From Valencia hispanica (Eukaryota > Chordata > Actinopteri > Cyprinodontiformes > Valenciidae), in the NCBI GenBank assembly GCA_963556495.2, contig OY747714.1, forward strand, positions 51,717,041-51,781,040: DNA of 64,000 nucleotides, in the 5' to 3' direction. The notes under the pieces were generated by a model, which was not told where the DNA came from, searched no databases, and saw only the letters and a list, made by a program, of their open reading frames with translations. A program made the translations under genes and the position numbers. Below, one piece after another: positions 24,401 through 33,400 of the stretch (position 1 is the first letter of the stretch; each line of letters opens with the position of its first letter).

Positions 24401-27400
24401 TGGTTCTGTTTCTCTCCATGAGGCGGAAAGGTCCGGGTCCAGGAGAATACGATGAAGATGGAGGATGATAAAGATGAATGATGATGAAGATGGAGGATGA
24501 TGAAGATGGAGGATGATGAAGATGATGAAGATGGAGGATGATGAAGATGAATGATGATGAAGATGGAGGATGATAAAGATGGAGGATGATGAAGATGGAG
24601 GATGATGAAGATGGAGGATGATGAAGATGAATGATGATGAAGATGAATGATGATGAAGATGAATGATGATGAAGATGGAGGATGATGAAGATGGAGGATG
24701 ATGAAGATGGAGGATGATGAAGATGAATGATGATAAAGATGAATGATGATGAAGATGAATGATGATGAAGATGGAGGATGATGAAGATGGAGGATGATAA
24801 AGATGGAGGATGATAAAGATGAATGATGATGAAGATGAATGATGATGAAGATGGAGGATGATGAAGATGGAGGATGATGAAGATGAATGATGATGAAGAT
24901 GAATGATGATGAAGATGGAGGATGATGAAGATGGAGGATGATGAAGATGAATGATGATGAAGATGAATGATGATGAAGATGGAGGATGATGAAGATGGAG
25001 GATGATGAAGATGGAGGACGATGAAGATGGAGGACGATGAAGATGGAGGATGATGAAGATGATGAAGATGGAGGATGATGAAGATGAATAATGATGAAGA
25101 TGGAGGATGATGAAGATGAATAATGATGAAGATGGAGGATGATGAAGATGGAGGATGATGAAGATGGAGGATGATGAAGATTGAAGATGATGAAGATGGT
25201 CTCTGTCTGTGTTGCAGAATGTCCTGATGAAGAGTTTCGCTGTAACACGGGTCGCTGTCTGGTTCCGGCGCTGGTCTGTGACGGCTACGACGACTGTGGA
25301 GATCTGAGCGACGAACTCAACTGTGGTAAGGAAACCGCCTTGGTCCAGAACCCGGGAAGAACCCGGAATCTGCTGCCAGAACCCAGTAGCAGATCCCAGG
25401 TTCTGTCTGGGTTCTGGTAGCAGGTAACGGGCAGGTAACGGAACCCGGGAAGAACCCGGGATCAGCTACCAGAACAGATCCCGGGTTCTTCCCGGGTTCC
25501 GTTACCAGAACCCAGACAGAACCTGGGATCTGCTACCAGAACCCGGGTTCTGCTACCAGAACCCAGTAGCAGATCCCGGGTTCTGTCCAGGTTCTGTCTG
25601 GGTTCTGGTAGCAGGTAACGGGCAGTTAACGGAACCCGGGAAGAACTCGGGACCTGCTACCAGAACCGGGACAGAACCCAGGAACTGCTACCAGAACCTC
25701 GGAAGAACCCGTGATCTGCTACCAGAACCCAGACAGAACCTGGGATCTGGTACCAGAACCCAGAAAGAAACCGGGATCTGCTACCGGAACGGCCATGTGA
25801 CATGTGACCTGGTCATGTGACCTGTGTGTCTGCAGTATGCGACCTGGTCATGTGACCTGTGACCTGGTCATGTGACCTGTGTGTCTGCAGTATGCGACCT
25901 GGTCATGTGACCTGTGTGTCGGCAGTATGCGACCTGGTCATGTGACCTGTGACCTGGTCATGTGACCTGTGTGTCTGCAGTATGTGACCTGGTCATGTGA
26001 CCTGTGACCTGGTCATGTGACATGTGACCTGTGTGTCTGCAGTATGTGACCTGGTCATGTGACATGTGACCTGGTCATGTGACATGTGACCTGTGTGTCT
26101 GCAGTATGTGACCTGGTCATGTGACATGTGACCTGGTCATGTGACCTGTGACCTGGTCATGTGACCTGTGACCTGGTCATGTGACATGTGACCTGTGTGT
26201 CTGCAGTATTTACTGGTCATGTGACCTGTGACCTGGTCATGTGACCTGTGACCTGGTCATGTGACATGTGACCTGTGTGTCTGCAGTATGCGACCTGGTC
26301 ATGTGACATGTGACCTGTGTGTCTGCAGTATTTACTGGTCATGTGACCTGTGACCTGGTCTTGTGACCTGGTCATGTGACATGTGACCTGTGTTTCTGCA
26401 GTATTTACTGGTCATGTGACCTGTGACCTGGTCATGTGACCTGTGACCTGGTCATGTGACATGTGACCTGTCTGTCTGCAGTATTTACTGGTCATGTGAC
26501 CTGTGACCTGGTCATGTGACCTGTGACCTGGTCATGTGACATGTGACCTGTGTGTCTGCAGTATTTACTGGTCATGTGACCTGTGACCTGGTCTTGTGAC
26601 CTGTGACCTGGTCATGTGACATGTGACCTGTGTGTCTGCAGTATTTACTGGTCATGTGACCTGTGACCTGGTCATGTGACCTGTGACCTGGTCATGTGAC
26701 ATGTGACCTGTCTGTCTGCAGTATTTACTGGTCATGTGACCTGTGACCTGGTCATGTGACCTGTGTTTCTGCAGTATTTACTGGTCATGTGACCTGTGAC
26801 CTGGTCATGTGACCTGTGACCTGGTCATGTGACACGTGACCTGTGTGTCTGCAGTATGCAACCTGGTTATGTGACCTGTGTGTCTGCAGTATGTGACCTG
26901 GTCATGTGACATGTGACCTGGGTGTCTGCAGTATGCGACCTGGTCATGTGACATGTGACCTGGTCATGTGACATGTGACCTGGTCATGTGACCTGTGTGT
27001 CTGCAGTATGCGACCTGGTCATGTGACATGTGACCTGGTCATGTGACCTGTGTGTCTGCAGTATGCGACCTGGTCATGTGACCTGTGACCTTGTCATATG
27101 ACCTGTGACCTGTGTGTCTGCAGTATGTGACCTGGTCATGTGACATGTGACCTGTGTGTCTGCAGTATGCGACCTGGTCATGTGACATGTGACCTGTGTG
27201 TCTGCAGTATGCGACCTGGTCATGTGACATGTGACCTGGTCATGTGACCTGTGACCTGGTCATGTGACCTGTGACCTGGTCATGTGACATGTGACCTGTG
27301 TGTCTGCAGAATGTGACCTGGTCATGTGACCTGTGACCTGGTCATGTGACCTGTGACCTGGTCATGTGACATGTGACCTGTGACCTGGTCATGTGACCTG

Positions 27401-30400: not shown

Positions 30401-33400
30401 TGACATGTGACCTGGTCATGTGACCTGTGACCTGTGTGTCTGCAGTATGCGACCTGGTCATGTGACATGTGACCTGTGTGTCTGCAGTATGTGACCTGGT
30501 CATGTGACATGTGACCTGGTCATGTGACCTGTGTGTCTGCAGTATGCGACCTGATCATGTGACATGTGACCTGGTCATGTGACCTGTGTGTCTGCAGTAT
30601 GCGACCTGATCATGTGACATGTGACCTGGTCATGTGACCTGTGTGTCTGCAGTATGCGACCTGATCATGTGACATGTGACCTGGTCATGTGACCTGTGTG
30701 TCTGCAGTATGCGACCTTATCATGTGACATGTGACCTGGTCATGTGACCTGTGTGTCTGCAGTATGCGACCTGATCATGTGACATGTGACCTGGTCATGT
30801 GACCTGTGTGTCTGCAGTATGCGACCTGAGCCGGGAGCACCGCTGTGGGGACGGCCGCTGTGTCTCCAGGGACTGGCTCTGTGACGGAGACCACGACTGC
30901 CTGGACAAGAGCGACGAGGCCAACTGCTGTGAGTACCTGTGGGAGGGGCGGGGCTACGGTAGCGGTTCTGATGAGTTAGACCGAGGGATCGGCATGTTTG
31001 GACTCATGGTGGTTCTGGTTCTGTTGGGTCTGCAGCCTGTAAGAGCCAGGGCCTGCTGGAGTGCAGGAACGGCCAGTGCATCCCGTCGGCCTTCCGCTGC
31101 GACGGCGAGGATGACTGCAAAGATGGCAGCGATGAAGAGCACTGCAGCCGGGAGCAGAGTGAGACATCTGTCCATTTCACACGTCTCTGATTTCAATGGT
31201 TAAAACTAAGTGTGAACGCTTGGATAAAGCTAACATAAGGGACATGTTTCTGATGAGGCAAAGCAGAACGTAAAACACCAACAAACACTAAACAAACTTC
31301 CTTCCTTCCCAGCCAATCAGCAACAAATATGACAGAGCAGATCTCACCTTTTGTTTCAACAAACACCTGCAAATGTTCAATTGAGCTCAACAAATGTGTC
31401 AAACCGAGTGGCACAGTGTGAAAAGCTTCTTATAGAGGATTTAATACTGGACTGTGATTCCAAGAATACCAGTTATTCATCTGTCCAGTCATACCAGGGG
31501 TCGCACTAGAAATTAAAAATGAATCCATTATCTATGTTTACAAGTCATTTTGTAAAACTATAACATATTTTTTCATTTAAAATAATATTCAGTCCAAACA
31601 AGCTTAGAACTACATATAAACACTAAATTAAACGATTATAAGAGGAACAGTTCACCTGTGGCTGAACGTCTCACAACCTCCTGGGATGTAGGAAGGAGCT
31701 GTCCCGATGATGTCATGTAGGAAGGAGCTGTCCCGATGATGTCATGTAGGAAGGAGCTGTCCTGATGATGTCACGTAGGAAGGAGCTGTCCCGATGATGT
31801 CATGTAGGAAGGAGCTGTCCCGATGATGTCATGTAGGAAGGAGCTGTCCCGATGATGTCATGTAGGAAGGAGCTGTCCCGATGATGTCATGTAGGAAGGA
31901 GCTGTCCCGATGATGTCATGTAGGAAGGAGCTGTCCTGATGATGTCATGTAGGAAGGAGCTGTCCCGATGATGTCATGTAGGAAGGAGCTGTCCCGATGA
32001 TGTCATGTAGGAAGGAGCTGTCCTGATGATGTCATGTAGGAAGGAGCTGTCCTGATGATGTCATGTAGGAAGGAGCTGTCCTGATGATGTCATGTAGGAA
32101 GGAGCTGTCCCGATGATGTCATGTAGGAAGGAGCTGTCCCGATGATGTCATGTAGGAAGGAGCTGTCCCGATGATGTCATGTAGGAAGGAGCTGTCCTGA
32201 TGATGTCATGTAGGAAGGAGCTGTCCCGATGATGTCATGTAGGAAGGAGCTGTCCCGATGATGTCATGTAGGAAGGAGCTGTCCCGATGATGTCACGTAG
32301 GAAGGAGCTGTCCCGATGATGTCATGTAGGAAGGAGCTGTCCCGATGATGTCATGTAGGAAGGAGCTGTCCCGATGATGTCACGTAGGAAGGAGCTGTCC
32401 CGATGATGTCACGTAGGAAGGAGCTGTCCCGATGATGTCACGTAGGAAGGAACTGTCCCGATGATGTCACGTAGGAAGGAGCTGTCCCGATGATGTCACG
32501 TAGGAAGGAGCTGTCCCGACGATGTCATGTAGGAAGGAGCTGTCCCGATGATGTCATGTAGGAAGGAGCTGTCCCGATGATGTCATGTAGGAAGGAGCTG
32601 TCCTGATGATGTCAGCATCTTTCTGAAGGAAGAGTGCAGCGATCATGTCCACACATTAAACTGTAACAAGCTCTTTATTAAACTAGCATACAGCGATTTT
32701 TGTTCAATGAATCTAATTCCTGGATGCAGGGCACAAACACACACCTCCACCTGGCAGAGGAAGTGACATCACAGCAGGATCACACCTGCTACTGAACAGT
32801 TTTGATGGTGAAGGTACCGTAGAACCGACTGGGTTTAGGTCTAAATACAGTCGGTTCTGACCCGATCGGTTCTGTAGACGTACCAACGATGTAGATGAGT
32901 CCGATTGAGATGGTTGATGGCTGCTCTCCTCGTGTCTCCTCCAGACCAAAGTGGGTGTGTCCCGGGTCAGCCCGGCTGTGGCTCCGCCTCCTGCCACCCA
33001 GCGTGTGGAGCCGGTTCCGCCGCCTGCGACCCCAGGAGCAACAACTGCTGTGAGTTATCAGGATGTCCGTCCTCCTCACCGTACTGATGGTGTCTCAGGT
33101 CTAGAGTCCGTCCTCCTCACCGTACTGATGGTGTCTCAGGTCCAGAGTCCGTCCTCCTCACCGTACTGATGGTGTCTCAGGTCTAGAGTCCGTCCTCCTC
33201 ACCGTACTGATGGTGTCTCAGGTCTAGAGTCCGTCCTCCTCACCGTACTGATGGTGTCTCAGGTCTAGAGTCCGTCCTCCTCACCGTACTGATGGTCACT
33301 CAGCTCTAGAGTCCGTCCTCCTCACCGTACTGATGGTGTCTCAGGTCTAGAGTCCGTCCTCCTCACCGTACTGATGGTGTCTCAGGTCTAGAGTCCGTCC

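Follow-up and report, generated by a model that had tools for sequence, protein, structure and literature searches.

Choice among equal 3' splice sites has so far been studied with engineered duplicates, and duplicated 3' splice site substrates were reportedly used by Reed and Maniatis in 1986. The stretch analysed here, 64,000 nucleotides from the fish Valencia hispanica (contig OY747714.1, positions 51,717,041 to 51,781,040; hereafter the window), presents 82 natural ones in a single intron of the corin gene: the acceptor of the exon encoding the third LDL-receptor-A repeat (LDLRA-3) and 81 intact upstream copies, or decoys, carried by a minisatellite termed array A. On balance, array A is probably a repeated LDLRA-3 acceptor whose last copy is chosen by means of the downstream exon and its donor, use of an upstream copy leading to a stop codon and nonsense-mediated decay (NMD). 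The repeat unit, the numbers of copies, the match between decoys and real site, the stops and the shared exon start were derived from the sequence, and the functional part of this reading is what we infer from them.

The closest known case is the IFI6 minisatellite, of which two downstream repeat units act as donors (PMC4526556), and array A is its acceptor counterpart of about 5 kb. In both, minisatellite units carry splice sites, and in array A these are identical or nearly identical to the working one (68 of the 81 decoys match it fully over positions -20 to +3, and the array abuts the exon). The two differ in that IFI6 repeats donors and array A acceptors, and in that IFI6 variants encode distinct isoforms, whereas the 81 intact upstream copies of array A all give a stop. 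The globin substrate GloC-2x3'ss (PMC5389562) resembles array A in setting identical 3' splice sites on one RNA against each other, yet that substrate is engineered and has two sites, whereas array A is natural and has 82. The decoy exons of OGT (PMC12017769) share with array A intronic, non-productive splice sites that may hold back intron removal. An OGT-type decoy exon, however, has both an acceptor and a donor, whereas array A is without a GTRAGT donor and thus no decoy exon of that type (0 GTRAGT, 0 GTAAG, 2 GTGAG, and 82 weak GTATG followed by C or T). The variable number tandem repeat (VNTR) of hTERT intron 6, with 26 repeats of 38 nt, is required for the beta-minus variant (PMC8150890) and is, like array A, an intronic VNTR tied to the splicing of nearby exons; its unit is not described as a splice site in the available part of that report, whereas the unit of array A is an acceptor. 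A literature search of a partial library found no repeated acceptor array among the titles and beginnings of abstracts listed. The remark of the first-pass annotation that no acceptor repeated on such a scale had been described is thus not contradicted by this partial search, although the donor counterpart in IFI6 is published.

Corin is a heart enzyme that converts atrial natriuretic peptide and takes part in salt and blood-pressure control. The gene model, on the plus strand as are arrays A and B and the exons located below, joins 23 exons at consensus splice sites (9266-50206) into a single continuous frame of 1097 codons followed by a stop. An additional first coding exon with an ATG (7194-7253, donor GTG/gtgagt), whose peptide is similar to the start of P0001, the corin of Cyprinodon variegatus, gives the gene its full extent from start to stop codon (7194-50206). 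A Pfam scan of the 1097-residue model returned Trypsin, Ldl_recept_a (seven stretches), Fz (two) and SRCR_2, all above curated cut-offs, so that Frizzled, LDL-receptor-A, SRCR and trypsin domains are united in one protein, as expected of corin. Among the proteins listed, the closest are fish corins, namely P0001 with 88% and Poecilia latipinna with 87% identity over the model, which by itself points to a source that is probably a cyprinodontiform or close to one, and no protein of near-100% identity was found among the best 120 of 1231 database matches. Given these domains and the names of the best matches, the original identification of the gene as corin holds. The exon after the array, which had been numbered 8, becomes coding exon 9 once the exon at 7194-7253 is counted. 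The LDLRA-2 exon (25218-25325) faces array A with its donor, GTG/GTAAGG at 25325/25326, and the LDLRA-3 exon (30818-30928), which is 111 nt long and both starts and ends in phase 1, has its acceptor, CTGCAG/TATGCG, at 30817/30818.

Array A (25794-30817; 5,024 bp) lies between these two exons, which encode the second and third LDL-receptor-A repeats, and abuts the latter with zero gap. Its unit consists of the LDLRA-3 acceptor and the first 11-12 coding bases of that exon. Upstream of the real site stand 92 acceptor units, most commonly of 42 and 55 bp (acceptor spacings: 42 in 38 cases, 55 in 20, the remainder 35-129); Tandem Repeats Finder (TRF) reported periods of 20, 42 and 55 across 25794-30828. 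Head-to-tail units within some 10-100 bp place the array among the minisatellites. When 0-3 mismatches were allowed, the 25-mer CTGTGTGTCTGCAGTATGCGACCTG had 85 matches including the real site, every one of them on the plus strand and within 25822-30828, whereas 100 shuffled sequences gave 0.00 on average. Units were defined by at most 6 mismatches over -20 to +3 (the largest number observed was 2) and an ending in AG, TG or CG, which yielded 93 acceptor-phase units with the real one included: 82 with AG, 10 with TG and 1 with CG. The 81 decoys with intact AG occupy 25836-30764, the first exon-like base being 25836 in the first copy and 30763 in the last. Full identity to the real site is retained by 43/81 decoys over -20 to +11, by 18/81 over -28 to +11 and by 7/81 over -55 to +11, and the decoys at 30384, 30598 and 30653 equal the real site from at least -98 to +12. 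These values bear out the earlier description of a minisatellite built from the working acceptor and the exon start, with dozens of perfect acceptor copies in some 5 kb of intron. The proposed amplification of about 100-fold fits the 92 upstream units, of which only 81 keep their AG.

The 92 units comprise 45 distinct sequences and are arranged in blocks. One block (28398-29659) holds all 11 units that have lost the AG (10 CTG, 1 ACG), with intact units interspersed, and one 55-bp unit has 11 exact copies, which are confined to the 3'-most 1.1 kb (29701-30817) adjoining the exon. Assembly errors are common in long tandem arrays, and array A could in principle be an artefact of this kind. Both the variety of sequences and the block structure are, however, unlike what repeated mis-joining of one stretch would give, and the window holds no N, which makes such an origin extremely improbable.

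Most units appear to carry a complete 3' splice site, with a predicted branch point TGAC (A at -16), a UG-rich tract and CAG, because no AG intervenes between the real acceptor and the AG of the preceding copy. All 93 units have a TGA whose A stands at -16, and in 92/93 the motif reads TGAC. The array contains 84 AG dinucleotides, 82 of which are acceptor AGs when the real one is counted. The real acceptor is preceded by 53 AG-free nucleotides, all within one 55-bp unit, and the next AG upstream is that of the last decoy. Smith and colleagues reportedly showed in 1993 that splicing takes the first AG downstream of the branch point. Under that rule, the branch point of the true site would itself lie within the last repeat unit, given that the AG-free zone of the real acceptor spans a single unit. 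The AG-free zone is at least 33 nt long in 80 of the 82 intact units, whereas in two decoys (27558 and 28072) an additional AG shortens it to 12 and 19 nt. The arrangement differs from NAGNAG sites, in which the rival AGs are only a few bases from each other and share a branch point. Recursive (ratchet) splicing was considered and excluded, since the units read AG/TATG rather than AG/GT and AGGT does not occur in array A.

The UG-rich tract also bears on the idea that the array is inert, its decoys being masked by RNA-binding proteins on the repeats while the true site is spliced normally. TDP-43 and CELF proteins bind UG and would be candidate maskers; TGTGTGT occurs 83 times in array A, and the full open frame is retained, corin being presumably expressed. 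The true site has the identical UG tract, however, so that a silencer would need to spare it, and TGTGTGT is found another 796 times elsewhere in the window and is thus not special to the array. We regard an inert array as unlikely.

In corins, the LDLRA-3 exon starts with x-C-x-x, followed by a stretch resembling EHRCGDGRC. In the 109 relatives that could be parsed by pattern from the best 120 of 1231 matches (a set with many near-copies, such as pig records), the exon opens with V-C in 67/109 and with VCDL, as it does here, in 18/109, including Poecilia latipinna. Judged from this comparison, TATGCGACCTG is coding sequence common to the relatives, and the repeats took TATGCGACCTG from the exon. 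Since the exon opens with coding sequence that teleost relatives have too, the array grew out of the splice site. The same counts exclude the reverse origin, in which the array overwrote the exon start. The coding start has drifted among the 81 decoys (50 TATGCG, 20 TATGTG, 8 TATTTA). A direct repeat, TGTGACCTG and TGCGACCTG, straddles the real acceptor at 30798-30828, and slippage between its two parts is a plausible seed from which array A may have begun. A scan of viral_contigs, in which DNA of relatives was sought, gave 0 matches. A protein encoded by the array was also considered and set aside: the longest open stretches on the plus strand have 38, 43 and 80 codons, and the minus strand has one open stretch of 216 codons.

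With the reading phase set by the G left from the LDLRA-2 exon, 81/81 decoys run into an in-frame stop before the LDLRA-3 donor, which is codon 7 in 73 of them and codon 13 in the other 8. The claim that use of an upstream copy would truncate corin is therefore upheld for every intact-AG copy. The peptide given for it, V-C-D-L-V-M and then TGA, is exact in 52/81 copies, and all 81 reach a stop. Stops located more than 50-55 nt upstream of a junction trigger NMD. Given the nearest decoy stop ends 146 nt before the end of the LDLRA-3 exon, all of them lie at least that far upstream, and decoy-spliced messages are predicted to be NMD targets by this rule.

Equal use of all 82 sites would leave 1.2% productive splicing by a simple sum of relative strengths; hence, a working gene would have to discriminate between them to some extent. 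By the same sum, roughly half productive splicing needs each decoy to be about 100 times weaker than the true site. The immediate sequence surroundings cannot separate the true site from every decoy, because three decoys match it throughout the -98 to +12 range given above. Over the core, 69/82 sites are identical, and for some the downstream exon alone sets the true site apart. An RNA structure exposing only the last copy is unsupported, since predicted local pairing does not favour the real acceptor: 68/81 decoys are at least as accessible in the 6-mer around the AG, and over -20 to +3 the real acceptor is mid-range, with 49/81 decoys at least as open. What distinguishes the real site lies downstream, namely 99 more nucleotides of exon and then the donor after 30928. 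Under exon definition, the true acceptor would be recognised from the 111-nt exon and the donor that come after it. Vertebrate internal exons have a size limit near 300 nt, on account of which exon definition would leave only the three last decoys as real competitors (exons of 166, 221 and 276 nt), and a low-level ladder of unproductive isoforms, longer by 55, 110 and 165 nt, would be expected. Array A thus offers a natural test of exon definition versus first-come scanning. An intron with numerous 3' splice sites occupied would also be removed more slowly. Such a drag is reasonable to expect because, in globin pre-mRNA with two identical strong 3' splice sites, both can be occupied at once and the doubly occupied pre-mRNA splices poorly (PMC5389562).

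This crowding might instead mainly cause the intron to be retained or the LDLRA-3 exon to be skipped, the latter giving a corin that lacks the third of its LDL-receptor-A repeats. The frame would survive skipping, given the length and phases of the exon, and two fish corins in the database (P0059 and P0063) are missing the adjacent LDLRA-2 repeat, likewise in frame. Retention would agree with the inhibition seen in the doubly occupied globin substrate and with the intron detention promoted by OGT-type decoy exons (PMC12017769). P0059 and P0063 are, however, database predictions that concern a different exon, and the proteins listed probably include none from the source species, as none is close to 100% identity. 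We consider this outcome quite unlikely as the main effect.

Several points weigh against recognition of the last copy through its exon and donor, with decay of decoy-spliced messages. The decoys may never be used, and an exonic enhancer, rather than the donor, may favour the true site. The UG-rich tract is weak in pyrimidines (11/18; 8 of the 23 modelled corin acceptors have 11 or fewer), so that decoys lacking an exon may not be strong enough to play a part. The decoys at 27558 and 28072, having an extra AG, may be incomplete. Furthermore, 10 copies share an identical CTG loss, all inside one block, which indicates the array evolves by block copying, so that the number of intact AGs says nothing on selection; the similarity rule by which units were defined also favours finding conserved cores.

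These last points bear directly on the idea of a selected regulator, in which the number of decoys sets the fraction of productive corin mRNA. All 81 decoys are poisonous, and units adjacent to the exon show some of the highest similarity to one another, suggesting continuing change there (mean neighbour identity in the last three blocks is 0.85, 0.87 and 0.98, the last from two values). An inner block, from 27710, is nevertheless equally homogeneous (0.89), exon definition would make far decoys nearly irrelevant, and 11/92 upstream units have lost the AG, all within one block. Moreover, arrays account for 45% of corin intron bases, making neutral growth the default explanation. A selected regulator is highly improbable. 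If the decoys are used, an unstable repeat would, by copy number alone, be a newly found way to change gene output.

A second array provides a built-in comparison within corin itself. Array B (40658-42946; 59-bp unit) stops 7 nt short of the exon with which the second Frizzled domain begins (42954-43185), whose acceptor, at 42953/42954, is directly downstream of it. TACTAAC occurs 39 times up to this exon, the last being the one next to the exon and the other 38 lying further upstream, and TACTAACTCTGCTCTCTGG, the 19-base branch-point and pyrimidine stretch of the same acceptor, occurs 38 times in array B. The AGs of array B are all GAG (38), with no CAG or TAG, and the sole CAG is that of the real acceptor. 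One corin array has thus copied its acceptor with the CAG, and the other without it.

The placement of array ends was compared with random placement after TRF rows had been merged by hand, which gave 16 arrays across the coding span; the low-scoring short rows 9767-9833, 16469-16513, 20249-20297 and 25517-25564, the third of which ends 20 nt before an acceptor, were omitted. Five array ends, starts included, fall no more than 20 nt from a splice junction versus 0.64 expected (P = 0.00015). At 10, 30, 50 and 100 nt, the P values are 0.0025, 0.00055, 0.0044 and 0.014, and without array A they range from 0.00055 to 0.029. Array ends hence favour splice junctions in this gene, which is a lead only, as the thresholds were picked post hoc and a single gene is concerned. 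In its widest form, the lead would have splice sites act as minisatellite nurseries throughout this genome, one corin array having captured a whole acceptor and the number of decoys, able to vary through slippage beside the exon, serving as a heritable rheostat that sets corin and natriuretic hormone through decay, with every additional acceptor diverting part of the transcripts; we hold this to be very doubtful.

Arrays 22376-23510, 24451-25199 and 33065-33638 also lie close to corin junctions, two of them 7 and 15 nt after donors and one 18 nt before an acceptor. The array at 22376-23510 carries, in reverse complement, the 14-bp unit TTTCTATGTGTGTA, which in turn forms an array of at least 5.5 kb (58473-64000) that runs off the window. 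A 44-bp array at 23565-23991, with 9.7 copies and a 100% match, contains the telomere-like CCTAACCCTAACC and looks very young. A 72-bp array (5633-7167) comes to within 26 nt of the start codon of corin, at 7194, and possibly belongs to the 5' untranslated region or the promoter. Within array A itself (25794-30817), TCATGTGA occurs 153 times, with one more occurrence in the rest of the window. It resembles an E-box of the MITF/TFE type, which might make the array a dense cluster of binding sites as well.

Two near-identical translated pairs (47822-47986 with 49039-49248, and 48227-48472 with 52726-52980; FCLICDMKI..., KLVHTPQRVGLTQRR...) are probably copies of a dispersed repeat. Near the start of the window, 471-1187 has frames with cysteine-rich stretches that look, by eye, like NFX1-type zinc fingers. 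In human, NFXL1 lies next to CORIN, and the gene order NFXL1-CORIN may be shared with this fish.

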